Shown piece by piece: positions 1 through 38,134 of a stretch of 39,839 nucleotides of DNA. The stretch covers positions 1 to 39,839 of the forward strand of contig DRLM01000135.1 of NCBI GenBank assembly GCA_011375345.1. The letters are read 5' to 3'. The number at the start of each line of letters is the position of its first letter. Positions within the stretch are counted from its first letter, which is position 1. The notes below the pieces were generated by a model. It was not told the origin of the DNA. It saw nothing but the letters and a program-made list of their open reading frames with translations, and ran no database searches. Source of the stretch: Gammaproteobacteria bacterium. Its GTDB lineage: Bacteria; Pseudomonadota; Gammaproteobacteria; DRLM01. Made by a program: the position numbers and the translations under genes.

Positions 1-208
1 GGCCGCCTCCTATGCGATTCCTGTTCGTCGGGCCAGTGCTTTGCCTTCAGCTTCCTTCAGATCCCACCTCGCGATGGGCACCTTTGCCGTTCGGCTAACC
101 GTTCCCCTTGCCGGGCCGGTAGGGGACTTCCACCCCCAAGTCATCCCCTCGCCACCACAGCTCGGGAAATAGCGCCAGTCACGGCGCTACGCGCCATGCC
201 TGGCGCAC
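1..208 (-). mobile_element. Group II intron, 5' end (domain I), truncated by window edge
   Basis: Read on the minus strand, the stretch begins at 208 with GTGCGCC, the group II intron 5' consensus (GUGYG). It continues with domain I features I recognise from bacterial group II introns: a GC-rich first hairpin, a block containing GGTGGAAGTCCCCTACCGG, then GCGAGGTGGGATCTGAAGGA and GACGAACAGGAATCGCATA. The rest of the ribozyme and any intron-encoded reverse transcriptase would lie outside the window, before position 1. The intron starts two bases after the T-tract of the terminator at 211-243. Insertion just behind an intrinsic terminator is typical of class IIC introns. The class is inferred, because domains V and VI are not visible. 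Confidence 0.8.
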
Positions 209-22464: not shown

Positions 22465-23313
22465 ATGAAACGGATGATGATCTTGTCGGGCCTCGTGCTG
22501 GCGTTCTCCAGCGCCACCAGTTTTGCGGTGCCCGTCATCAACTACAGTGATTTTTCGGACACAAGCGGTCTGACGCTGAACGGCGATGCCGCCCAGGTGG
22601 GGAACGTGCTGCGGGTAACGCCGGCCATCGACGGCAAGGCCGGCAGTGCGTTCTCCACCAACACGGTTTCGCTGAGCGCCGGAACCTCCTTCAGCACCTA
22701 CTTCCAGTTCCAGTTCACAGACCCGGATATCGACGTCTGTGACAGTACAGGCGATTGCGGAGCGGATGGTCTGGTGTTTGTCGTGCAGACCCAATCCAAC
22801 AATGTTGGTGGCGGGGGAGGAGACATCGGGTACCAAGGGATCGCGAACAGCCTGGGCATCGAATTTGACACCTGGGAAAACGGTTCGGTCGACGATTTCA
22901 GCAGCAACCACATCGGCATCGATCTCAATGGCGATATCGACTCCGTCGTGCTCGCCGAAGTGACCGAGGCCGACATGAATGATGGCGATATCTGGAACGC
23001 CTGGGTCGATTACAACAGCGTCACCCAGTTGCTGGAAGCGCGACTGACCCGTTCCGCCACCCGCCCGCTCAATGCCCTGGTCTCCTATTCGGTGGACCTG
23101 GCCTCTGTCCTGGGCTCTACGGACGCCTTTGTGGGCTTCACCTCGGCCACCGGCGCCTCCCATGCCAACCACGATGTACTTTCCTGGCAACTCGAGAACA
23201 AGTTTGCCCCCATCGGCAGTACGGTACCAGAGCCTGCCAGCATTGCGCTGCTTGGTGCCGGCCTCGCCCTGCTTGGCGGCCAGCGCAGGAGGCAAAACCC
23301 GAAGAAGAGGTGA
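22465..23313 (+). CDS. PEP-CTERM protein with L-type-lectin-like domain
   Basis: A 282-residue secreted protein. A signal peptide spans residues 1-21 (ends SFA). The body follows the bacterial legume-lectin pattern: GKAGSAFSTNTVSLSAGTSF, FQFQFTDPD, then ADGLVFVVQTQ, SLGIEFDTWENG and HIGIDLNG, the usual core of the beta-sandwich with Ca-binding acidic residues. The tail is VPEPASIALLGAGLALLGGQRRR, a PEP-CTERM signal followed by ten further residues. It probably binds carbohydrate in the extracellular matrix after exosortase processing; the ligand is unknown. Expression is likely RpoN-dependent. Confidence 0.88.
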   Translation: MKRMMILSGLVLAFSSATSFAVPVINYSDFSDTSGLTLNGDAAQVGNVLRVTPAIDGKAGSAFSTNTVSLSAGTSFSTYFQFQFTDPDIDVCDSTGDCGADGLVFVVQTQSNNVGGGGGDIGYQGIANSLGIEFDTWENGSVDDFSSNHIGIDLNGDIDSVVLAEVTEADMNDGDIWNAWVDYNSVTQLLEARLTRSATRPLNALVSYSVDLASVLGSTDAFVGFTSATGASHANHDVLSWQLENKFAPIGSTVPEPASIALLGAGLALLGGQRRRQNPKKR

Positions 23314-23983: not shown

Positions 23984-24961
23984 ATGCGTAGGGCGAACTA
24001 TCTATTGTTATCCATGGGGTCGGCTGCCCTGATCTGTGCCGGTGCTGCCGTTGCAGGGCCGCCTTCGGGGTTTACCTTCAACGACTGGACTGTGAGCAAC
24101 GGTGATATCGCGCTGAAGGCAACGACTTGCCCCACCGGTTACACCTGCGGCAGCCCCATCCTGGGCAAGGGCTTTTTGCAACGGCAGCTCAAGGAAAATG
24201 CCAGCGGGATCATCTATTTCCAAACCATCGTCACCAATCAGGATGCGACCTTTGACGCCGGCACGGCCACTACCCGGCCGTTTTCCGATGAAAACTTCGT
24301 GCGCACGGGCGTGACGGGCATCTCCAGCCGGCAATCCATCCAGGACACCACGATTGACCCCATCACCAGCGTGGCCACGGATTTCGCCACCTCCCTGGTG
24401 CTGGACACGGGCTGGGCCTCAACCCTGGCCGGCAAGGAAGCCCAGATGGAAATCACCCAGTCGCTGACCCAGGCGACCACCGGTTTCACCAACGACTTTA
24501 TCCTGCAACAGGAAGGTTCGGGTGACACTGTCCTGGGCCGCTGGATGAGTATTGATCAAGGCGTTGATCTGACACCGGAAAGCACAACAACCACCGACTT
24601 GCAGGAGTTCGTGCTGGTTCAGGTCAAGGGCAACAAGCAAACCACCACCCGGGATGCCGCCTCGACCGCAAACGATCCCGTGGACCTGTTGCCGACCGGT
24701 GCCACCTCCAGCGATGGGGCCGCCCCCAGCAACGACCTGAGCTGGACCGCGGGGCAGGAGATCAAAGTGGTCTGGATTGGCCAGGACATGGCTTCCGCCG
24801 GGCAAAAATACGGTTTTCAAGCCTACACCAACGTAGCGGATGCCAACCGCACCATCAGCTACTTTGAAATCGGGGGCGGAACCGGACCTTTTGAGGCCCC
24901 CGGTACGCCGGCGCCCTATGCGTGGCTGACCGATCCCTTCGGTACCAAACCTACCTTTTAA
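23984..24961 (+). CDS. Secreted protein of unknown function
   Basis: A 325-residue protein with a clear signal peptide (cleavage near AAVAG-PP). I do not recognise the family. A Cys pair lies near the N-terminus (TTCPTGYTCGSP), suggesting a disulfide. The body is rich in Thr, Asp, Gly and Gln and contains likely beta-strands (GIIYFQTIVTNQD, LVLDTGWASTLAG, LQEFVLVQVKGNKQ, YGFQAYTNVAD). There is no PEP-CTERM tail, lipobox or membrane helix, so it is probably periplasmic or released. It has its own promoter, a 160-nt leader, a perfect AAGGAGG ribosome site and a strong terminator. It is therefore a single, probably well expressed transcription unit. Confidence 0.82.
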   Translation: MRRANYLLLSMGSAALICAGAAVAGPPSGFTFNDWTVSNGDIALKATTCPTGYTCGSPILGKGFLQRQLKENASGIIYFQTIVTNQDATFDAGTATTRPFSDENFVRTGVTGISSRQSIQDTTIDPITSVATDFATSLVLDTGWASTLAGKEAQMEITQSLTQATTGFTNDFILQQEGSGDTVLGRWMSIDQGVDLTPESTTTTDLQEFVLVQVKGNKQTTTRDAASTANDPVDLLPTGATSSDGAAPSNDLSWTAGQEIKVVWIGQDMASAGQKYGFQAYTNVADANRTISYFEIGGGTGPFEAPGTPAPYAWLTDPFGTKPTF

Positions 24962-24983: not shown

Positions 24984-25013
24984 AGAGAGGGGGCACGTGT
25001 CCCCTCTCTTTTT
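24984..25013 (+). terminator. Strong intrinsic terminator
   Basis: AGAGAGGGG (24984-24992) pairs with CCCCTCTCT (25001-25009), extended by a G-U and a C-G pair around a 4-base loop, followed by T residues to 25013. It ends the secreted-protein transcript. Confidence 0.92.
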
Positions 25014-25199: not shown

Positions 25200-25232
25200 G
25201 TTTATTTTGACTGCACAACAAGGGTGAACCCA

Positions 25233-26243
25233 GTGACGAGCGAACAACAATGGAATGGTCCCGATCCCATGGCGGTAATGCGCATTGCCTCCGCCTATTG
25301 GGAATCCAGCGTACTGCATGTGGCACACAGCCTGGATGTGTTCTCGAAATTGGCTGAAAAACCGGCCACGGCGGAAGAACTGGCCGCTCAGTGCCAGGCG
25401 GACGCCCGGGGGCTGGAGATGATCTTGATCGGCTGCGTGGGCTTGGGGCTGCTGGAGAAAAAAGACGGCCGCTACGCCAACAGTCCGGTGGCGGAGACGT
25501 TTTTGGTGAAAGGCGGGCCCCGCTATCAGGGCGGCATCGTGTCCATGTTTGCCGACTGGGTGGAGCCCTGGTCCAAACTGGGGGACGCTGTGAAAACCGG
25601 CGCACCCGTGGTGGTGAAACAGCACGACAAAGGCGACGAGGCCACCCGCACATACATTATGGGCATGCTGTACCGTGGCATTCCCCAAGCCGAGCTGCTG
25701 GCGGATGAAGTACCCCTCAGCAACAAAAAGAAAATGCTGGATGTCGGTGGCGGCCCCGGCATTTTCTCCATCAAGATGGCGCAGAAAAACCCCGGCTTGC
25801 GGGCCGAGGTCATGGACCTGCCCCAGACCCTGCGGGTCACCCGCGACATCATCCGGGATTTCAGCGCCGAGGACGTGGTCTCCACCAAGGAAGGCAATTA
25901 TCTGGAAGATACGTTCGGTGAGGGTTACGACGTGGTGCTGCTGTCTTCCATGATCAGTCAGGAAGGTCCCGGGGTGATCAAAAACATCATCCAAAAATCC
26001 TTCGACGCCATGGTGCCCGGCGGGGTGATTTTGATCCAGGAGCAGTTTTTGAACACCGAAAAATCGGGCCCACTGCTGCCAGCACTGATCGGCCTCAATC
26101 AGTTGATTCACACTCCGGCCGGGCGCGCCTATTCGGCCAGGGAAGTGGCGGACTGGGCCGCCGACATCGGTTTTACCGATCTCAGCTTTCGCCCTCTGCC
26201 CGACCCCAGCCCGTTCACGCTGATTCAAGGCATAAAAGCATAA
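25233..26243 (+). CDS. O-methyltransferase-fold protein with dimerisation domain (catalytic His replaced)
   Basis: A 336-residue protein of the plant-type/BchU/acetylserotonin O-methyltransferase superfamily. Residues 1-100 form the winged-helix dimerisation domain (ESSVLHVAHSLDVFSKLAEKPATAEELA). SAM motif I is LDVGGGPGIFSIKMA near 169-183, with the acidic EVMDLP after it. In this family the segment after VVLLS usually reads N-x-L-H-D-W with the catalytic His. Here it is SMISQE (about 239-244), so the base is missing. It may act without general base, do other SAM-dependent chemistry, or bind only. The GTG at 25233 is preferred for its AAGGGTGA site; a GTG at 25224 is in frame. It is followed by the LolA-like gene after 12 bases. 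Confidence 0.85.
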   Translation: MTSEQQWNGPDPMAVMRIASAYWESSVLHVAHSLDVFSKLAEKPATAEELAAQCQADARGLEMILIGCVGLGLLEKKDGRYANSPVAETFLVKGGPRYQGGIVSMFADWVEPWSKLGDAVKTGAPVVVKQHDKGDEATRTYIMGMLYRGIPQAELLADEVPLSNKKKMLDVGGGPGIFSIKMAQKNPGLRAEVMDLPQTLRVTRDIIRDFSAEDVVSTKEGNYLEDTFGEGYDVVLLSSMISQEGPGVIKNIIQKSFDAMVPGGVILIQEQFLNTEKSGPLLPALIGLNQLIHTPAGRAYSAREVADWAADIGFTDLSFRPLPDPSPFTLIQGIKA

Positions 26244-26255
26244 GCGGTTGATTCT

Positions 26256-27095
26256 ATGAAGCTATTAAATAAGGGATTTGTTCTCGGCATGGCCATGGTG
26301 TGGAGCCTGGCACCGGCCGCAAGCCACGCCGCGGCCGAGCCGACGGGAGCAGAAGTCTACGAACACTGCAACGTCAAGTATCCGGGAGAGGACCAGCGCT
26401 CGCGCCTCAGCATCATCTTGCGCGACAAGGACAACAACGAGAAAAAAAACGTCTACCGCCGCTTCTGGAAGGGCTACAAGGGCAAGGACGGGGTGTTCGA
26501 CAAAATGGTGTTGTTCACCGAATTCCCGCCGGACGCCCGCGGTGCCGCCTTCATGCGCTGGGCCTACACTGACCAGACGGACAAAAACGCGGATCAATGG
26601 ATCTATCTGCCCGTGTTGAAAAAAATCCGCCGGGTGTCGGTACGCGACCCGGGTGACAGCTTCCTGGGCTCGGACCTGACCTATGCCGATATCAGCGACA
26701 ACCCCATCAACCCCGGCCGGCACAAGTTGCTGCGGCGGATGGAGAAAGGAGACATGGAGGTGTTCGGGGTGGAGACCGTGCCCACCAATCCTGACAAAGC
26801 CCTGTACAGCCGGGTGATCACTTGGTTTACCCGCAACGGCGCGTCCTGGGACAGCTGCCACAAACGCCAGGTGGACTATTACGACAAACGGGGCGAGCCG
26901 CTGAAACAACAATTCATCAAGTGGCAGCGTGTAGGCAAAGCCTGGGTGTGGGATGAAGTCCTGGTGCGCAACGTTCAAACCGGGCATTCTTCGGTGTTTC
27001 AAGTGAGCGATGTGGAAATCAACGTAGATCTGGACGAGGAAGTGTTCACGGAAAGAGCCCTGCGTCTGGGCGCCCGCAGGGCGGAAAGCCGCTGA
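26256..27095 (+). CDS. Periplasmic LolA-like (outer-membrane lipoprotein-sorting family) protein
   Basis: A 279-residue exported protein with signal peptide MKLLNKGFVLGMAMVWSLAP to ASHA. The mature part matches the LolA-like family found beside RND transporters. Recognisable blocks are FWKGYKGKDGVFDKMVLFTEFPPDARGAAFMRWAY, then DQWIYLPVLKKIRRVS, GSDLTYADIS and a closing FQVSDVEINVDLDEEVFTERAL. The fold is an open half-barrel that holds acyl chains, so it may carry a lipid across the periplasm. Two Cys residues (EHC, DSC) could pair. It is placed between the methyltransferase-like gene and the regulator and RND unit. Substrate is unknown. Confidence 0.85.
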   Translation: MKLLNKGFVLGMAMVWSLAPAASHAAAEPTGAEVYEHCNVKYPGEDQRSRLSIILRDKDNNEKKNVYRRFWKGYKGKDGVFDKMVLFTEFPPDARGAAFMRWAYTDQTDKNADQWIYLPVLKKIRRVSVRDPGDSFLGSDLTYADISDNPINPGRHKLLRRMEKGDMEVFGVETVPTNPDKALYSRVITWFTRNGASWDSCHKRQVDYYDKRGEPLKQQFIKWQRVGKAWVWDEVLVRNVQTGHSSVFQVSDVEINVDLDEEVFTERALRLGARRAESR

Positions 27096-27152
27096 AGAAA
27101 CGCCCCGGCACGACTCACCGTCCTAGATGGCCTGGGCCGCCGGAAGGCCGTG

Positions 27153-27181
27153 TTGACCTGATGTTATACAACGTATAACAT
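27153..27181 (+). promoter_or_regulatory. 21-bp palindromic operator overlapping a promoter
   Basis: ATGTTATAC (27161-27169), AAC, GTATAACAT (27173-27181) is a perfect 9-bp inverted repeat. TTGACC (27153-27158) could be a -35 box, with TATAAC or TAACAT inside the right arm as -10. The palindrome therefore covers the core promoter. It lies 58 bases before the ribbon-helix-helix regulator gene, so autoregulation is likely. The base composition stands out from the GC-rich surroundings. Confidence 0.65.
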
Positions 27182-27239
27182 ACGTCGCACACTTTCCCGG
27201 CGGCCATCGCCGTTTGCTCAGACAGTGAGGTAACACAGC

Positions 27240-27680
27240 ATGCAAAAATCACATAAAAACAGCCGCATGCGGGACGCTGCCATGCGTCGCGAACAGGCCC
27301 TGAACATGGCCATGAAACGCAAAGAAGAATACTTGGGCGCCCGGGTGCCGCGCGAGTTGAAAGACCGTGTCATCGCCCGGGCCAAAGAGCAGGGAATCCC
27401 GGTCTCCATATTGATTCGAAATGTCCTCGAAGACGCTTTCGGTATCGCCCCGGGCCGGCAGCAAAGCGGTTCCCCGTCAACGTCCCAAACGGCGCCGAGC
27501 ACCGAAAGACAAGCCCGCTTTCCTTCGGTGCTCGGCTGGGAAACCATCACCCTGAACAGACCCATCCCTTGCTCCGCCTGCGGCGTGCAACAAGCGGTGG
27601 GCAGCAAGGCCACCTTGGGCGTGGCCTTGCCGGGTGAACAGCACGTGGTGTTGTGTAATCAATGCAAGGAGCGTTTTTGA
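27240..27680 (+). CDS. Ribbon-helix-helix / zinc-ribbon protein, probable regulator
   Basis: A 146-residue protein of unusual make-up. The basic N-terminus leads into YLGARVPRELKDRVIARAKE then VSILIRNVLEDAF (31-67), which fits the beta-strand, helix, helix of Arc/MetJ-type DNA-binding proteins. A Ser/Thr/Gln-rich linker (70-95) follows, and the C-terminus has two CxxC pairs (Cys111, Cys114, Cys139, Cys142), a zinc ribbon or redox sensor. I know of no named family with this combination. GAGGT about eight bases upstream supports the ATG. It sits behind the palindrome and overlaps the beta-barrel gene by 19 bases, so it is probably the operon's regulator. DNA binding is inferred. Confidence 0.75.
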   Translation: MQKSHKNSRMRDAAMRREQALNMAMKRKEEYLGARVPRELKDRVIARAKEQGIPVSILIRNVLEDAFGIAPGRQQSGSPSTSQTAPSTERQARFPSVLGWETITLNRPIPCSACGVQQAVGSKATLGVALPGEQHVVLCNQCKERF

Positions 27681-29170
27681 CGCCGCCTGACCGGGCGCTT
27701 CAGCGTCTCGTCATCGCTGCGTTGTTGTTGATTTTCGCCAGCCGGTTCGCCCACGGTCAGGACGCTGACGCTGTGGGGGAACCGGCCTTTCTGTTTGGCG
27801 ATGAAGCGGAACAGACCACGCCGCCGGCAGACCCACCGTGGTGGAAGGATATCCGCACCTCAGGATACCTGAAGAACGAAACGGCCTACCGCTACCGGGA
27901 ACCCCGTTCCATCACCAAGATTCGCAACGTCGTCTATCTCAACGCCACCTACCCCTACAGCCCCAGGCTGCGCTTCAATTTTGCCGGCTGGGCCTACTAT
28001 GATCTGGCCTACGACCTGTTCGATTATGAAACCATCGCCGCCCGGCTGGAGCGGGAGGAAGGCGAGCCGCTGGCCTTCGTGGTCAACCTGCCGCAGGAAA
28101 AAGACTCGCCGGTGGCAGAGGCCCGCGAACTCTATCTGGACTGGTTCGGGGGCGATGTCGACGTCCGCTTGGGCAAGCAGTTCATCGTCTGGGGCGTACT
28201 GGAAGGGGTGCGCATCGTGGACGAAGTCAACCCGCTGGATTTCCGCGAGCTGGTGATGCCGGAGCTGCTGGACTACCGCATTCCGCTGTGGAGCCTCAAG
28301 GCCGACTGGTACCGGGACAAGGCCAGCTATGAGCTGATCTGGATTCCCGACGTCCGCTTTCACAAACCGGCGCCACGGGGCTCGGAATGGGAGTTCCTGC
28401 AGGAAGTGCCGGGCACCCGCTACCCTGATCGCTTCGACCCGAAAAATTCCGAAATCGGCTATAAAGTCAGCACCAACTTATGGGACACAGAGCTGTCTTT
28501 CAGCTATTTCTACACCTGGGACGATTACCCCGTCATCTTCCGGCACGTGCAGCTCAACTCTGCGGCGCCGCCGGAATTCCTGCCCACCTACACCCGTATT
28601 TCCATGTACGGCGCCACCTTCATCAAGCAGCTGTGGAACATTATTCTCAAAGGCGAGCTGGCCTTTGTCACGGGCAAGTATTTCGCCATCGACAACCTGG
28701 ATGAAAACGGCGACGGCTTTTTGGACTCCAACGGTGAATTCAAGCGCAACCACATCCGCTGGGGCCTGGGGGTGGACTTCAACTGGCTGGGTGCCGATAT
28801 TTCTCCCAGTATCACCCAATGGATCATCCTGAATTACCACGACGCCATGATTCAGGACAAATACGATACCGGTGTCAATCTGTTCATCCGCAAGGACATG
28901 CCGGAGAAATCCATTGTGTTTCAGTTCCTGGCAATGTACCTGGTCAACATGGAAGAGCTGTACATGAACCCGCAATGGACCTTCCGCGTCACCGACCGTT
29001 TCAGCCTCACCGCGGGCCTGGACCTATTCTATGGCAGAAAAGCCTCCTTCGGCGTGGGCAGCAACGCCAGCGCGGTGGGCGGTGTGGAAGTCATCGAGCA
29101 ACGGGCGCAGTTTTTCGGTGAATTTCACGACAACGACCGGGTGTTCATGGAATTCAAATACGCCTTCTGA
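27662..29170 (+). CDS. Outer-membrane beta-barrel protein, DUF1302-like
   Basis: A 502-residue protein with a signal peptide (ASRFAHG-QD) and a predicted beta-barrel. YLKNETAYRYREPRSITKIRN begins the barrel. VDVRLGKQFIVWG, then DEVNPLDFRELV and IPLWSLKADWY are the blocks I associate with DUF1302-type proteins found with MMPL/RND transporters. The protein ends VFMEFKYAF, with the terminal Phe and alternating aromatics expected for BAM recognition. It could be the outer-membrane exit or acceptor for the RND substrate. The ATG at 27662 lies inside the regulator gene. A TTG at 27677 has AAGGAG five bases upstream and may be the real start, which would shorten the signal peptide by five residues. 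Confidence 0.82.
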   Translation: MQGAFLTPPDRALQRLVIAALLLIFASRFAHGQDADAVGEPAFLFGDEAEQTTPPADPPWWKDIRTSGYLKNETAYRYREPRSITKIRNVVYLNATYPYSPRLRFNFAGWAYYDLAYDLFDYETIAARLEREEGEPLAFVVNLPQEKDSPVAEARELYLDWFGGDVDVRLGKQFIVWGVLEGVRIVDEVNPLDFRELVMPELLDYRIPLWSLKADWYRDKASYELIWIPDVRFHKPAPRGSEWEFLQEVPGTRYPDRFDPKNSEIGYKVSTNLWDTELSFSYFYTWDDYPVIFRHVQLNSAAPPEFLPTYTRISMYGATFIKQLWNIILKGELAFVTGKYFAIDNLDENGDGFLDSNGEFKRNHIRWGLGVDFNWLGADISPSITQWIILNYHDAMIQDKYDTGVNLFIRKDMPEKSIVFQFLAMYLVNMEELYMNPQWTFRVTDRFSLTAGLDLFYGRKASFGVGSNASAVGGVEVIEQRAQFFGEFHDNDRVFMEFKYAF

Positions 29171-29221
29171 CACGCCGGCACGAGCACCGCTTACCCTGAC
29201 CCGAACAAGCAGATCACCGTC

Positions 29222-31822
29222 ATGCTGAACAAACTTTACGCCACCGTCAGCCGCCATCCCAAGACCATCATCATCGCCGTGCTGGCCATCACTCTCTACT
29301 TCGCGCTGCAACTGCCTCACTTGCGCTGGGAGACCGATGCCCGGGTCTACCTGCCCAAGGGGCACAAGGCCATTTTGTACGACGAACGGGTGGACGAGTG
29401 GTTCGGGGTGAAAGACGCCGTCATCATCGGTATCGTCAATGACGAGAAAAGCATTTTCAATCCTGAGACCCTGGCGCGCATCGACCGCATCACCCGGCAA
29501 ATCGCCGCTCTGCCCGGCGTGGTGGCCCAGCGCCCCATCGACATCGCCTCCCTGTCCACCGCCACGGTCTTCGTCGGCACCGACGACGAGCTGGTGGCCC
29601 AGCCCCTGATGCCCCGTGTGCCGCAAGGCGACGAGGCCATACAACAACTGAAGCAGCGGATTTACGACCACCCGGAGCTGTTTGTTGGCAATCTGGTCTC
29701 GGCAGACGGCTCGGCCGCCATGATCCGGGCCAAGCTCAAAGAAGGTCAGGCCAACCGCTACATGACCTACTGGCAGATCAAAACCTTGCTGGACAAGGAA
29801 AGGGGCGTCACCCCGGCCTGGTCCGGGGGCGGCGGCGACTGGGCGCAGCAACAATGGCCGGACGAAAGCACGACCACGGCCGCGGCTGATCTCGCAGCGC
29901 CGGAAGGGTGGACGGGCGAGGTCTTCACTCTTGATGAGGCTGCTACCGCGGCGGCCACCCCGGCCGCCCCCGCCCCGGATGCGGCAGCGTCAGGGCAGTG
30001 GTCAGAAGCCGACCGCCAGTCCTGGTGGCAGGGGCAGGCGGCCGCTGCCGGCGACGACAACGGCGACCGCTTCTATCTGGCGGGACGCCCGGTCATCGAG
30101 GTCACCGCCGGCCAGCACGCCATGGCGGACATGCAGGTCATGATCCCCCTGCTGGTGTTGGCCATCGCGGCCACCCTGTTTGCGCTGTTTCGCACCTGGC
30201 GCGGCGTGCTGCTGCCCCTGTTCGTCATGGGCGCCGCCATCATCTGGACCTTCGGCGCCATGGCGGTCCTGAACGTGCCTCTCTATACCATCTCCACCAT
30301 GCTGCCGGTGATTCTGGTGGCGGTGGGCATAGGCGACGCCGTGCACCTCATGAGCCATTACTACGACCACGTCCTGCACGAACCCGGGCGGCCGGCGCCG
30401 GAACTGGTACAGGACGTCATGGGCCGCCTGGGTGCGCCGCTGGTCACCACCTCGCTCACCACCGCGGCGGGGTTCATGTCCTTGTATTTCGCCGAAATGC
30501 CGCCCTTCGTGGTATTTGGCGTGTTCACCGTCGTGGGCATCGCCGTGAGCTGGCTGTTGTCGGTTACCTTCCTGCCCGCCGTGCTGGGCCTGCTCCGCCC
30601 CAAAGTGGGCGGCTACCTGGCCAAGCGCCGCGCCCTGCGCGTGTATTCCGAACAAAACCGGCTGAGCCGCTTTCTGGTGGCGGCTGCCGCGGCGCTGCAC
30701 CAGCGCCGCACCCTCGCCACAACGGGCCTGGCCGCCCTGGTGCTGCTGGGGGCGCTGGGCAGCAGCAAACTCTATGTGGATTCCAGCTGGATGAACGACT
30801 TCCGGCCGGACAGCGATCTGGTCAAGGCCAACACTCTTCTCAACGAACGCTTCGACGGCACCATCTTTCTCAACGTGGTAATCGAGGGCCAGCGGCCGGA
30901 CACCTTCAAATCGCCGGCCCTGCTGCGGCGCATCGCCGCCATGCAGGAAAACATCGCAGACCTGCCCTATGTGGGCAATTCCCGCTCCATCGTGGATTAC
31001 ATCAAAAGCCTCAACCGCAGCCTGCACGCGGACGACCCGGCCTACAGCGTGCTGCCCGAGAGCAAAGGGGAAATCGCCGAAATACTGTTCCTGCTCTCGG
31101 TCTCGGGCCGGCCCGATCAGTTGGACGAGATGATCGACTACGACTACCGCCGCGCCCTGGTCACTTTTTCCATCAAAACCGACCACACCCAGGATCTCAA
31201 GCGTATCATCGACGCCACGCGGGACTTCTCCCAGCACAATTTCGCAGACTTCGACGTGGACGTGAATCTGGCCGGCTCGGCCAATAACTCCTATGTGTGG
31301 GCGGATTTGCTCATCGACAGCCAGACTCTGGCCATCGTGCTGTCCAAGGTGGGCATCTTCCTGCTGGCGCTGCTGCTGTTCCGCTCTGCCAAAATCGCCC
31401 TGTTCACCATCGTGCCGGTCACCCTGACCACACTGTTGATCGCCGGCTTTGCGGGCCTGGCCGGCATCGCCCTGGACGTGTCCACCGCCCTGGCGGCGGG
31501 GGTGGCCATCGGCGTGGGGGTGGACTACGCGGTGCACTACATTTTCCGCTACCGCGCCGAAAAACGGCGCGGGCTGGACGACCTGGCCGCCACCCAGGCC
31601 ACCTTGCGCAGTGTCGGCAAGACCATCGTGTTCAACGCCGCCGTGGTCACCATCGGCTTCGCCGTGCTGTGGCTGTCGCAGTTCCCGCCCCACGTCAAGC
31701 TGGGCTATTTCGTCGTGGCCTACATGGTGCTCAGCTGCGTGATCGCGCTGCTGACCCTGCCCGTGCTGTTTCAATATCACCGCCGGCGCGCCATGACCGA
31801 GGTCGCGGTAAGTGCGACTTAG
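29222..31822 (+). CDS. MMPL/RND family transporter with Trp-rich insertion
   Basis: An 866-residue inner-membrane transporter with two MMPL repeats. TM1 is at about 13-32. The first periplasmic loop starts WETDARVYLPKGHKAILYDERVDEWFG. TM2-6 begin at about 303 (MQVMIPLLVLAIAATLFALF) and include AVGIGDAVHLMSHYYDH. The second half repeats this: LYVDSSWMNDFRPDSD, a second large loop, then GVAIGVGVDYAVHYIFRYR near the end. The family includes HpnN (hopanoids), MmpL3 and aryl-polyene exporters, all moving lipids outward. Residues 197-282 are an inserted Gly/Trp/Ala-rich stretch not expected in the family. The gene is followed by an outer-membrane protein gene that starts inside its stop region. Confidence 0.92.
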   Translation: MLNKLYATVSRHPKTIIIAVLAITLYFALQLPHLRWETDARVYLPKGHKAILYDERVDEWFGVKDAVIIGIVNDEKSIFNPETLARIDRITRQIAALPGVVAQRPIDIASLSTATVFVGTDDELVAQPLMPRVPQGDEAIQQLKQRIYDHPELFVGNLVSADGSAAMIRAKLKEGQANRYMTYWQIKTLLDKERGVTPAWSGGGGDWAQQQWPDESTTTAAADLAAPEGWTGEVFTLDEAATAAATPAAPAPDAAASGQWSEADRQSWWQGQAAAAGDDNGDRFYLAGRPVIEVTAGQHAMADMQVMIPLLVLAIAATLFALFRTWRGVLLPLFVMGAAIIWTFGAMAVLNVPLYTISTMLPVILVAVGIGDAVHLMSHYYDHVLHEPGRPAPELVQDVMGRLGAPLVTTSLTTAAGFMSLYFAEMPPFVVFGVFTVVGIAVSWLLSVTFLPAVLGLLRPKVGGYLAKRRALRVYSEQNRLSRFLVAAAAALHQRRTLATTGLAALVLLGALGSSKLYVDSSWMNDFRPDSDLVKANTLLNERFDGTIFLNVVIEGQRPDTFKSPALLRRIAAMQENIADLPYVGNSRSIVDYIKSLNRSLHADDPAYSVLPESKGEIAEILFLLSVSGRPDQLDEMIDYDYRRALVTFSIKTDHTQDLKRIIDATRDFSQHNFADFDVDVNLAGSANNSYVWADLLIDSQTLAIVLSKVGIFLLALLLFRSAKIALFTIVPVTLTTLLIAGFAGLAGIALDVSTALAAGVAIGVGVDYAVHYIFRYRAEKRRGLDDLAATQATLRSVGKTIVFNAAVVTIGFAVLWLSQFPPHVKLGYFVVAYMVLSCVIALLTLPVLFQYHRRRAMTEVAVSAT

Positions 31823-32768
31823 CGCGCCATCTCCTGATCCTGGCCGGCCGGGCGCCCCCGTTCTCGCTTCCCTGCTCGGACTGGCGGCCTTGTTCGGCGC
31901 CGGACCGCTGGCCGCCGACGCGCCCAAGCGGGACTGGTCCGTGGCACCGGTGCTGGGCCTGTACCAGCCGTCCTTGTCCGACCTCAACCAGGGCGAGTTC
32001 CTTGCCACCATTTCGGGGGACGCCGAACTCATCGACCAAAGCAGTGTAAACGTCAGCGACTCCGGCATCCCCAGCCCTACCGAGCCCTTCACCTATCCCA
32101 TCCCCCTGGATCCCCTGCCCGCCGGCACCACGGCGGCACTGGAATTTCAGTGGCGCTTCGATGACCGCCACACGCTCCTGATCGGGGGCTCGACCTGGGA
32201 GGCCAGCTCCCAGACCCTGATCCGCCGGCCTTTTCCCATGCAGGGTTTTTTTGTTGAAACCGAGGCCACCCGCAAACACAAGGTGTCGTTCACCGAATTG
32301 TTCTTCGGCTGGCGCTATGACCTCCAGCAGCGCCGCGACCGGCATGTTTACTTGCGTCTCAGCCTGCACGACATGTTCGACATCGACCAGCGGGAGGACT
32401 TTTCCTTTTTCTTTCTTGAGGGCCGGCCCAAGGGGGTGCGCAAATCCATCATCATCCAGTCCCAGGCCACTGGCGCCTTGTTGTTGCAAACGGGGCTGGG
32501 GGGCGAATGGTTCGTCACCAACTGGCTGTCGCTGAGCCTGGAGGCCAACTACGCCTACGGGCTCAACGAAGTGGTGTTGCGGGACGGCAGCGTCAACGTG
32601 GACTTCCGGGACTCCGACAACGTCGCCCTCAAATCCCCCCTGAAACCGGAGAACCCGCCGGAGGGCCGATTCGACATGCAATACAAGCTGCCGGACGACA
32701 GTTACAAAACCCTGCGCCTGGACTTCAGCGGCTGGAAAGCGCTGGCCAAAGTCTCCATCCATTACTAG
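31812..32768 (+). CDS. Outer-membrane beta-barrel protein of unknown function
   Basis: A 318-residue protein with a signal peptide (LASLLGLAALFGAGPLAA-DA). The remainder alternates polar and aromatic residues in strands typical of an outer-membrane barrel: WSVAPVLGLYQPSLSDLN, AALEFQWRFDDRHTLLIGGSTWE, SFTELFFGWRYDL, HVYLRLSLHDMFDI, LLLQTGLGGEWFVTNWLSLSLEANYAYG. It ends LAKVSIHY, with Tyr last, as in many outer-membrane proteins. I do not recognise a named family. The GTG start overlaps the RND stop by 11 bases, so it is translationally tied to the transporter and probably works with it. Only 14 bases separate it from the TPR gene. Confidence 0.78.
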   Translation: MRLSAPSPDPGRPGAPVLASLLGLAALFGAGPLAADAPKRDWSVAPVLGLYQPSLSDLNQGEFLATISGDAELIDQSSVNVSDSGIPSPTEPFTYPIPLDPLPAGTTAALEFQWRFDDRHTLLIGGSTWEASSQTLIRRPFPMQGFFVETEATRKHKVSFTELFFGWRYDLQQRRDRHVYLRLSLHDMFDIDQREDFSFFFLEGRPKGVRKSIIIQSQATGALLLQTGLGGEWFVTNWLSLSLEANYAYGLNEVVLRDGSVNVDFRDSDNVALKSPLKPENPPEGRFDMQYKLPDDSYKTLRLDFSGWKALAKVSIHY

Positions 32769-32782
32769 GCGGCCCCCGGCGC

Positions 32783-35485
32783 ATGCTCCCCGCCCGCTTC
32801 CTCACCATCGCCCTGCTCCTGGCCGCCCTCCTCGCCACCGGCCCGACCGGGGCCGCCGAATTTACCCTGGACCAGCTCATTCAGGGGGGGCGCCAGGCGC
32901 TGTCAGTGGGGGATTTCCAAAGCGCCCGGGAAGCTTTCGAGGCGGCGCTGCGCCTCGATCCGGACAACGCCGAAGCCAACTATCACCTGGGGTCCATCTT
33001 CATGCGCCTGGGCCAGCAGAAAAAAGGTACCGAATACATCGCCCGCAGCGCCCGGGCCGCACCGGACAATTATCAGCTCCAGTTCGTGCTGGCCCAGGCC
33101 CTGGAGCGCACCCGGCAGATCGAGGGCGCCATCGCCGCCTACCGCAAAGTCATTGCCCTGGCCCCCGCAAGCCCCGAGGCCAAAATCTCCGAGCGCCGCA
33201 GCCGCCTGCTCACGGGCAAGCAACTGGGGGAGGAAGGCAAGCTGGAACGGGCCCGGGAGGTGTTTGCCGACCTGCTGAAAAGCTATCCCGACGACGCGGA
33301 GATTCTTACCGATGCCGGCCTGACGCTGATTTTGCTCCAGCGCTACGACGAGGCCCGCGATGTGCTGGAAAAAGCCGCGACGATCACCCCCGACCACCCT
33401 AATGTGCAGCGCTACCTGGGCGATGTATACGAGCAGCTGGGTGAGCTGCGTAAAGCGGAAGACGCCTACCACAAAGCCTTGCCAAAATTCCCGCGCGATT
33501 CCCCCCCCACGCGGCAAATCAAGCTCAAGCTGGCCTTGATCCAGGCCCAACTGGTGTTGGCGGAAGAGCGCTGGCAGGACGCCGAACACCTGCTGAACCA
33601 GGCCCTGGCACTTGATCCCGGCAATCCCGCGGCGCGCTTCCACCTGGCGGCCGCCCTGCGCGGCCAGGGGCGCTTCGAAGAAGCTGAAGCGGTCTTGCTC
33701 GATCTGCTGAAGGACTTTCCCGACGACTTCGACGCCCGTCTGCGCCTGGGGGCCCTCTATCTGGAACTCAAGCGTCCCGGGGACGCCGCGCGGGAACTGG
33801 AGGAAGTGACCCTGCGGGCTAGCGGCAGCCCCCAGGCAGAACAAGCCTCCCGCCTCCTGTCCACCCTCTATGCCACGACCGCGGGCCGGAAAATCCGCCG
33901 CCAGGTGCTGGAAGAACGGCGCACCTTCTACGAAGGCGCCCTGGCCCTGGAACCCGACAAGCTGGACGCCTGGCGGGGACTGGTCCCGGTCTATCTCAAC
34001 CTGGATCTCAAAGACCAGGCCGTGGAGGCCTTCGAAAACATCATCCGCCTCGATCCGGACGACCACGAGGCCTACCTGGCCCTGGGCTCGCTGAAATACG
34101 ACCAGGGCCGCTATGGGGAAGCGGCCGGCATCTACGAACAACTGCTGGAGCGCCTGGACGAAAACGACGCGCTGCGGCCCCTGGCCGAACAGCGCGCCCA
34201 CCTGGCCCGGGCCCAGTATGATTTCACAGAAAAGAAGTACGAAGACGCGCAAGCCGCGCTGCTGGACTACACCGCCACCTACCCTGAGGATTTCATCGGT
34301 CACTTTTATCTGGCGCTCAGCTACGCCGCCCAAGGGAAACTCGAAGAAGCGGAGCTGGCATACAAACAGGTGCTCATTGCCGCCCCCAATCATCCCGGCG
34401 CCCATTTGAACCTGGGCATGCTGTATGAACAAATGGGCCGGGAAGAAGACGCCATGCTGGAATACCGCCGGGCGGCCCGCGTTGCCGGCCCCGCGGGGGA
34501 CGAAGCCCACAGGCGGGCGGAGAACCTGCAAAAACGCATTGGCGGTTTCGACTACAGCATGGGTTATTCGGCGGATTTCGACAACAACAGCAATTTGAGC
34601 CAGAACGACCCCAAGGAAGAGATCCGCACAGACTTAAGCGCCAACGCCACCTACCAGTACAAGCTGCCGGGACGGCCCGTCACTACCGGCTTGCGGGGCA
34701 GCATGGTTTATTCTGTGTTTCACTCAGGACAGTTCGATTATGTGCGCACCACCGGCACGCCCTTTGTCCGCGCCCGCTGGAAAGACCACGATTTTTACCT
34801 GGACTTCGCCCGCTCAGAGTTGAGCGGACTGCTCAACGAACGCCTGGTCAGCACCACCACCAGCGCCAGCGCCGAGGTCTCACACCGTTTCCAGATGCCC
34901 GCCGTGCTGCCCTTCCTCGCCGGCGAGGCTGAGCGGGAATCCGCCGGCAGCCAGTGGCGCTTCAGCCTCCGGCGGCAGCGTTTTGTCTCCCCCTCCTCCC
35001 CGGCCTTCGACGCCAATGCCACATCGCTGGGCCTGTCCTTCAACCAGGCCCTGAGCCCGGCCACGGAATGGACCCTGGGATACAACTACACTGACAACCA
35101 GAACAAAAACCCATCGGGCAGCGATTTCGCCTTCCGCGGCCACGGGGTGTTTATTCAGGCCAGCCGGCGCATGGGACCGGGCTGGATCGTCAGCGGCTCG
35201 TACAACTACACCTACAGCCGCTATAAAAACCCGGACCGGGTGACCTTTTTCTCCCGCCGCCGCACCAACCAGTTCCACGCCCTGTCCCTCAACGCGAACT
35301 ATTTCGTAAACGACAAACTGCGCCTGTTCGGCGCCTACCGCTATCAGCTCAATGAATCCAACCTGCCCACGGAGTTCCGCCTCAGCATTGCCGACGCCAA
35401 CGTCAACGCCGTGCTGGGCACCAGCCCCTCTCTGGGCGACTACCAGCGTCACGGACTCACCCTGGGATTTTCGCTGGGATTTTGA
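32783..35485 (+). CDS. TPR-repeat protein with C-terminal outer-membrane beta-barrel
   Basis: A 900-residue protein. A signal peptide (RFLTIALLLAALLATG to GAA-EF) is followed by about a dozen or more tetratricopeptide repeats to about residue 585 (for example ALRLDPDNAEANYHLGSIF, ALALDPGNPAARFHLAAAL, ANHPGAHLNLGMLYEQMG-like units). From about 587 (GGFDYSMGYSADFDNNSNLS) to the end the sequence becomes a beta-barrel and finishes GLTLGFSLGF with C-terminal Phe. Periplasmic TPRs plus a barrel is the plan of Slam lipoprotein translocators, PgaA, BcsC and PelB. It probably makes or guides an outer-membrane export channel. It is the last gene of the RND unit. Other roles, such as polysaccharide export, are possible. 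Confidence 0.87.
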   Translation: MLPARFLTIALLLAALLATGPTGAAEFTLDQLIQGGRQALSVGDFQSAREAFEAALRLDPDNAEANYHLGSIFMRLGQQKKGTEYIARSARAAPDNYQLQFVLAQALERTRQIEGAIAAYRKVIALAPASPEAKISERRSRLLTGKQLGEEGKLERAREVFADLLKSYPDDAEILTDAGLTLILLQRYDEARDVLEKAATITPDHPNVQRYLGDVYEQLGELRKAEDAYHKALPKFPRDSPPTRQIKLKLALIQAQLVLAEERWQDAEHLLNQALALDPGNPAARFHLAAALRGQGRFEEAEAVLLDLLKDFPDDFDARLRLGALYLELKRPGDAARELEEVTLRASGSPQAEQASRLLSTLYATTAGRKIRRQVLEERRTFYEGALALEPDKLDAWRGLVPVYLNLDLKDQAVEAFENIIRLDPDDHEAYLALGSLKYDQGRYGEAAGIYEQLLERLDENDALRPLAEQRAHLARAQYDFTEKKYEDAQAALLDYTATYPEDFIGHFYLALSYAAQGKLEEAELAYKQVLIAAPNHPGAHLNLGMLYEQMGREEDAMLEYRRAARVAGPAGDEAHRRAENLQKRIGGFDYSMGYSADFDNNSNLSQNDPKEEIRTDLSANATYQYKLPGRPVTTGLRGSMVYSVFHSGQFDYVRTTGTPFVRARWKDHDFYLDFARSELSGLLNERLVSTTTSASAEVSHRFQMPAVLPFLAGEAERESAGSQWRFSLRRQRFVSPSSPAFDANATSLGLSFNQALSPATEWTLGYNYTDNQNKNPSGSDFAFRGHGVFIQASRRMGPGWIVSGSYNYTYSRYKNPDRVTFFSRRRTNQFHALSLNANYFVNDKLRLFGAYRYQLNESNLPTEFRLSIADANVNAVLGTSPSLGDYQRHGLTLGFSLGF

Positions 35486-35507: not shown

Positions 35508-36269
35508 TCAATCCCGCAGGGCGTTGAAGGCACTCACGGCCCAAAACACGGCCACTGCCGTCACCACCAGCAACACCAGAAACGGGGTGGCGAAGGCGCC
35601 CACATCCGGGGTGCCCACCAGCACCGCCCGCACCGCTTCCACGGCGTAGTTGATGGGATTGATGGTGGCCACGTACTGGATCCAGGCGGGCATGAATTCT
35701 TTGGGCACCAGGGCGGTGGAGAAAAACATCAAAGGCAGGGTCATGAGATTGCCGATCATCACCAAGGGCTCTTCCCGCTGCAGCATGATGGCAAAGCCGT
35801 TTGAAATGGCGGCGAAACACAGCCCCAGCAACAGCACCACAGCCATGGCCAGCAGCAGATAGACGGGATTCCAGTTAAGCTTCGCACCCACAAGCGCCGC
35901 CACCAGCAACATCACCGCCACTTGTGCCAGCACCTGCGCGGTGGAATGCAGCACCCGACTGAGCACGATGGCCACGCGGGAGACCGGCGAGACCAGCATC
36001 TTGTCCACCGTGCCCGATTGAATTTCCCTGAGCAGGCTCACCCCGCTCCAGGACGAACCAAACAACACCGTCATAATCAACACCCCCGGGACAAAGAAAT
36101 CCATGTAGCTGCCCGCGGGCCAGCCGGGAAGCTGCACCATGTTTTTGAACAACTGCCCGAAGATGATCAACCAGATCAGCGGCTGCACCAGGGTAAACAA
36201 GGTCCACATGGGCATGCGGACGGTGATCTTCATGTATTTGTTAAAAAGATGCCAGGTATCGGCAAACAT
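35508..36269 (-). CDS. ABC-2 type transporter permease
   Basis: A 253-residue membrane protein with six hydrophobic helices. MWTLFTLVQPLIWLIIFGQLF opens the first helix, and FVPGVLIMTVLFGSSWSGVSLLREIQSGTVDKMLVSPVSR is the coupling helix region typical of DrrB/NodJ-like permeases. MTLPLMFFSTALVPKEFMPAWIQYVATINPINYAVEAVR is the conserved C-terminal block. It pairs with the ATPase encoded upstream (36457-37815) to make an exporter of a small hydrophobic compound, drug or lipid. It converges on the TPR gene with a 22-base gap. Confidence 0.92.
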   Translation of the reverse strand: MFADTWHLFNKYMKITVRMPMWTLFTLVQPLIWLIIFGQLFKNMVQLPGWPAGSYMDFFVPGVLIMTVLFGSSWSGVSLLREIQSGTVDKMLVSPVSRVAIVLSRVLHSTAQVLAQVAVMLLVAALVGAKLNWNPVYLLLAMAVVLLLGLCFAAISNGFAIMLQREEPLVMIGNLMTLPLMFFSTALVPKEFMPAWIQYVATINPINYAVEAVRAVLVGTPDVGAFATPFLVLLVVTAVAVFWAVSAFNALRD

Positions 36270-36456: not shown

Positions 36457-37815
<1,359 letters not shown>

Positions 37816-38134
37816 TGTGCCTGAGAGAAGAAGTAATATAGATGCGGAATGACTGAGAGATGATGCTGACGCGCGCCGGCGCTCCCCCCCTGGCCGCTCC
37901 TCCCTGAACATGAGGGCCTAAGTATAGGGTTTTGAACCGCGCTGAGAAACACCGGGCGAGGGAATTTCACCACAAAGAAGGCACGCAGACCAAAACAAGG
38001 CGGCCCAGCATTCACCGAAATCACTGACCGCTGTCTGTGTCCGGCGGGTGATTTACCCAGCGAGTAGAATTGTCCAATCCCGCAGCACCGGGAGGTGCCG
38101 CCATTGGCGCCAGCCAACAGGAGCCTGCGAGACA

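Follow-up and report, generated by a model that had tools for sequence, protein, structure and literature searches.

In the genome of a gammaproteobacterium we find a locus that, with a probability of about one half, encodes a dedicated cell-envelope export system for a hydrophobic cargo and probably also for a protein cargo. The locus lies on contig DRLM01000135.1 of assembly GCA_011375345.1, of which positions 1 to 39,839 were analysed (39,839 nucleotides, hereafter the window), and is centred on an MMPL/HAE3-like RND pump. It is best read as a Gram-negative counterpart of the Drr/MmpL7/LppX system for lipid export, in which an RND core resembling AmeABCD would be combined with a Slam-like outer-membrane translocator. 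The pump, a DUF1302 outer-membrane barrel, a second, predicted small barrel (B2), a barrel protein with N-terminal TPRs (the TPR-barrel), a putative regulator with ribbon-helix-helix-like (RHH-like) and zinc-ribbon-like parts and, less strictly, a LolA-like periplasmic carrier are co-conserved as one dedicated locus. An ABC-2 exporter and an exported protein family without Pfam entry (U325) accompany them. In window positions, the genes are:

23984-24961, + strand: U325, member of a multi-copy family of exported proteins, candidate cargo; no match in a Pfam scan
25224-26243, + strand: O-methyltransferase (Pfam Dimerisation and Methyltransf_2)
26256-27095, + strand: LolA-like periplasmic carrier (PF17131, 134 bits; DUF1329, 38 bits, cut-off 23)
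27240-27680, + strand: putative regulator with RHH-like N-terminus and zinc-ribbon-like pair of CxxC motifs (weak CopG-like Pfam match, below cut-off)
27662-29170, + strand: DUF1302 outer-membrane barrel (PF06980, 57 bits, cut-off 23)
29222-31822, + strand: MMPL/HAE3-like RND pump (PF03176, 117 bits)
31812-32768, + strand: B2, predicted small outer-membrane beta-barrel, in no Pfam family (AlphaFold2 model, mean predicted local distance difference test, pLDDT, 90.6)
32783-35485, + strand: TPR-barrel, 900 amino acids, N-terminal TPRs and a SlipAM-like C-terminal barrel (TPR and TPR_Slam matches)
35508-36269, - strand: convergent ABC-2 type permease, DrrB-like (PF01061)
36457-37911, - strand: convergent DrrA-class ABC ATPase with Trp-rich C-terminal tail (TIGR01188, 323 bits, cut-off 312)

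The seven genes from the methyltransferase to the TPR-barrel are co-directional over 25224-35485. The run described in the original prediction (methyltransferase, LolA-like carrier, DUF1302 barrel, RND pump, second barrel and TPR-barrel, with a regulator in the middle) is present in full, and the TPR-barrel has the predicted 900 residues, counted from a start at 32783. The overlapping genes it had reported are found between the regulator and DUF1302 (19 bp) and between the RND and B2 (11 bp), B2 and the TPR-barrel being separated by a gap of 14 bp. Its borders, 25233-35485, were drawn too narrowly, as U325 upstream and the convergent ABC-2 exporter downstream are conserved as well.

Upon scanning named genomes with an alignment of the RND protein, we obtained 49 loci, all titled uncultured gammaproteobacteria or proteobacteria (G and L numbers below denote genomes and loci compared). 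Linkage was counted in those loci with sufficient flanking sequence and the counts measure linkage to the RND, which had served as the query. We observe that B2 directly follows the RND in 44/45 loci and that DUF1302 directly precedes it in the same proportion (44/45), with the TPR-barrel downstream in 34/40 and the regulator linked in 32/41. The LolA-like gene is linked in 27 of 38 loci, the ABC permease is found in 27 of 36 and U325 stands upstream of the core in 25 of 36. In the closest genomes the full set, ABC pair included, has the same order, and the reappearance of this order in loci from several families puts the arrangement far outside what chance would produce. The methyltransferase, present in 6 of 38 loci, is ruled out as a core part and is a dispensable, lineage-specific add-on. 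Synteny of all seven genes, proposed as a check of the original prediction, was thus recovered for the RND, DUF1302, B2, TPR-barrel and regulator, less strictly for the LolA-like gene, and not for the methyltransferase; the LolA-like gene had been given too fixed a place, being unlinked in one large clade. Of that overall reading the dedicated locus stands, the weight of the methyltransferase and the borders do not, and the lipid substrate is suggested by homologues. In outline, the idea of a dedicated machine that had not yet been described in its entirety still stands, as we found no description of the whole assembly in the literature searched, the coverage of which was partial. Additionally, the divergences of component pairs correlate (r 0.67 to 0.88, ATPase excluded); because common descent alone gives such values, this is weak evidence, consistent with co-inheritance. 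The ATPase correlates less with all components except the permease (r 0.33 to 0.46), perhaps because its tail is variable and paralogues interfere.

When examining 274 gammaproteobacterial genomes of about 171 families, we find B2 in 18, U325 in 17 and a strong TPR-barrel match in 17. The three families occur together in the identical 17 genomes, B2 occurs alone in one genome, and 256 genomes carry neither of these two, B2 and U325 (Fisher test of B2 against U325: p = 4e-26 by genome, which ignores kinship, and 6e-13 by family). Furthermore, a DNA pattern for the WWxxWAGKGG motif of the ATPase tail matches once each in 16 of these 17 genomes and nowhere else among the 274, in which its reversed control had no match. 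The association of the tail is independent of linkage, because in G080, G183 and G207 the ATPase with this motif lies away from the core; U325 likewise lies elsewhere in G057 and G195.

Turning to the inner membrane and periplasm, the best NCBIfam match of the RND is TIGR00921 (HAE3; 224 bits, below the cut-off of 352). Like HpnN (hopanoid) and BstA (sterol), Gram-negative lipid transporters, it belongs to the RND superfamily, but its scores fall well short of the curated cut-offs of both (HpnN, 103 bits against 752, which does not place it in that family; BstA, 20 bits against 1400) and its partners differ. Between its hydrophobic segments 1 and 2 it carries a Trp/Gly/Gln-rich insert, presumably in the first periplasmic domain, similar in make-up to the ATPase tail. 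In the latter the WWxxWAGKG core is near-invariant (36/37 orthologues), and in some lineages the tail carries tandem W[ST]xEEMxxWW; two proteins of one locus thereby share Trp-rich low-complexity segments. The carrier has Pfam matches to LolA_like (PF17131) and DUF1329 and none to the family of LppX, a protein with the LolA fold. In the regulator, both CxxC motifs are conserved in 45/45 orthologues. As a separate observation, locus L050 (G000:C145, 10393-14658) holds another RND with a LolA-like gene and a third exported-looking protein, without B2 or a TPR-barrel, after a small protein resembling a TetR-type regulator.

In mycobacteria, DrrABC, MmpL7 and LppX export the lipid phthiocerol dimycocerosate (PDIM; PMC11539658). 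The present locus likewise unites a DrrA-class ATPase and ABC-2 permease, an MMPL pump and a LolA-fold carrier, but it is Gram-negative, has one permease, a PF17131 carrier in place of LppX and outer-membrane barrels, and lacks polyketide synthases among its conserved genes. AmeABCD of Castellaniella defragrans, which serves the efflux of apolar (monoterpene) compounds (PMC6394551), encodes together a DUF1302 barrel, a LolA-superfamily periplasmic protein and an HAE3-type RND, and a related set is known from P. putida (PP_0765/0766/2018/2019; PMC10866462). Counterparts of all three recur here, the RND being HAE3-like, with the addition of the regulator, B2, the SlipAM-like TPR-barrel, the ABC-2 exporter and U325. 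It is therefore conceivable, though we consider it unlikely, that the locus performs AmeABCD-type efflux of apolar toxic compounds and that the remaining genes are neighbours with separate roles: the core trio is the same, it would alone suffice to export hydrophobic compounds, and the P. putida homologues are required for growth on Tween 20. However, B2 is linked to the RND as tightly as DUF1302 is, and B2, U325, the TPR-barrel and the ABC tail motif form one phyletic pattern. Moreover, Pfam showed no AmeC (COG4447) in the cluster, and none was seen among the recurrent neighbours.

For the outer membrane, the AlphaFold2 model of B2 is a small barrel that Foldseek places, at low TM-scores, in the general class of OmpT, OmpA and OmpW. 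The Pfam scan gave no family covering B2, with weak generic barrel matches only, and a search of PDB sequences returned chance-level matches for B2 and none for the TPR-barrel. The latter has many TPR matches in Pfam, including TPR_Slam (PF24575, 37.8 bits, cut-off 35.2). In hhalign, its C-terminal barrel with some TPR columns aligns to SlipAM proteins along most of the barrel length (99.0%), and the barrel on its own still does so (97.9%, E 3e-13), whereas negative controls, among them B2, DUF1302 and BcsC barrels, reach 0.2-9%. In a direct scan with PF04575 the TPR-barrel of the window is unmatched and a paralogue on G000:C121 lies just above the cut-off. Judged by profile comparison, the TPR-barrel is remotely related to the barrels of SlipAM/Slam, that is, of the type XI secretion system (T11SS), and would count at most as a distant member of that family; the generic lipid barrel first supposed gives way to a relative of protein translocators. 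DUF560/SlipAM proteins mediate the secretion of soluble proteins as well as of surface proteins (PMC8406197, PMC12282271). T11SS/Slam (DUF560, PF04575) and the present locus share N-terminal TPRs, a SlipAM-like barrel and an adjoining candidate cargo with a signal peptide; they differ in size (about 900 amino acids here, about 480 for Slam), in a barrel that is similar only remotely, in a candidate cargo without TbpBBD and in the recurrent partners B2, RND and ABC.

This relationship raises the further possibility, to which we give little weight, of protein secretion only, in which the TPR-barrel and B2 export U325 while the RND, the LolA-like protein and the ABC exporter power this export, chaperone U325 or modify it. 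The kinship with SlipAM would fit, as would the genome-wide co-occurrence of U325 with B2 and the TPR-barrel. Second B2 and TPR-barrel pairs without a nearby RND (L038 on G000:C121, L047 and L049) also each adjoin a U325 paralogue, which suggests that B2, the TPR-barrel and U325 form a sub-module that can stand apart. These same pairs, however, suggest that the RND half is unnecessary for moving U325, and homologues of the RND, LolA-like, DUF1302 and ABC parts handle hydrophobic small molecules or lipids.

It is improbable that slow rearrangement in related lineages passively holds unrelated envelope genes together. All carrier lineages are gammaproteobacteria, conservation extends to some flanking genes, for instance TsaD, and correlated divergence is also predicted by common descent; but the core persists while its flanks differ from clade to clade (one has TsaD, another cytochrome c and ccm genes), components co-occur even where unlinked (the ATPase tail; U325 in G057 and G195), and presence and absence coincide over the families sampled. 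Also improbable is export of a polysaccharide, with the TPR-barrel acting as a porin of the PgaA/BcsC kind. The TPR and barrel architecture and the assignment of some PgaA homologues to PF04575 would allow this, but the conserved genes include no polysaccharide synthase or other glycosyltransferase, and a BcsC-type porin is ruled out by a genome scan with BCSC_C (PF05420) that matched no TPR-barrel of this system and by hhalign (2.5% to BcsC barrels against 97.9% to SlipAM barrels).

The candidate cargo, U325, has an N-terminal signal-like segment, is predicted to be beta-rich, retains two nearly invariant cysteines and reaches up to eight matches per genome. Longer proteins of about 680 amino acids, apparently with two tandem U325 domains, are seen at L143 (11322-13373) and L146 (7565-9583). 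A fold search with its weak model gave no meaningful match. BurrH is a helical-repeat protein, and the likeness of U325 to it (two PDB-sequence matches, E 2e-4) was disregarded, U325 being predicted to be beta-rich. Near the variant loci L067, L069, L083, L084 and L097 there are exported-looking proteins of about 325-410 amino acids (N17), perhaps distant relatives of U325; the hhalign match (74% over 41 columns) is suggestive only.

Several observations weigh against an export system of the proposed kind. The named RND matches all come from genomes that are uncultured by title, and the co-occurrence of the components could partly stem from shared ancestry of the host lineages. In the clade of L062, L064, L066, L075, L080, L100 and L101 the core stands without a LolA-like gene or U325 nearby, and in the near-relative set G004 carries U325 without B2. 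As for the cargo, the AlphaFold2 model of U325 is poor (pLDDT 63), no lipobox was seen in the protein by eye, and none of 29 members has a Pfam match to a TbpBBD-type domain, unlike known T11SS cargo. The literature's assignment of PF04575 to some PgaA homologues also makes a polysaccharide cargo possible, though unlikely. In several loci of the clade just named, the core lies behind cytochrome c maturation-like genes, and several have a cytochrome c-like protein after it.

Under the preferred reading of lipid export joined to a Slam-like translocator, the DrrAB-like ABC-2 exporter and the HAE3/MMPL-type RND would deliver a compound of hydrophobic or lipidic nature to the periplasmic face of the inner membrane, the LolA-like protein would carry it across the periplasm and the DUF1302 barrel would receive it at the outer membrane. 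Proteins of the U325 family, likely the cargo of the TPR-barrel translocator, would be taken to the surface by the TPR and SlipAM-like barrel together with B2, and there may bind or display the compound. By analogy with the homologous systems the substrate would be a lipid; the components would presumably touch one another directly, and the RHH/zinc-ribbon-like protein would regulate the operon. That the lipid-export half and the protein-secretion half act together is suggested by their shared inheritance. Going further, the locus might represent a trans-envelope machine of a new class, in which lipid export is coupled to Slam-like protein secretion and a lipid-loaded protein coat is laid on the surface, with the ATPase tail and the RND insert as private coupling or substrate-handling elements, but we regard this as doubtful.

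One inherited locus here would tie together lipid export by RND/MMPL pumps and protein secretion of the Slam type, which have mostly been treated separately. Its phyletically clean set of partners, comprising two families without Pfam entries (B2 and U325) and an unusual Trp-rich ABC tail, opens direct tests of how hydrophobic molecules pass through the periplasm and the outer membrane. The trait marks uncultured gammaproteobacterial lineages, several of them titled Chromatiaceae, Ectothiorhodospiraceae or Thiotrichaceae, and the record titles of carriers include groundwater and biocathode samples.

Elsewhere in the window, a scan for promoters and terminators yielded close to as much as in shuffled sequence and was not used as evidence. 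A terminator-like hairpin lies at 24989-25005 (+), 3' of U325 and 5' of the methyltransferase, such matches being near chance level. Upstream of the locus, a PEP-CTERM-type protein is encoded at 22465-23313 (+) and was not seen as a conserved neighbour; at the window edge, positions 1-78 (-) hold a partial match to a group II intron RNA (RF02001).

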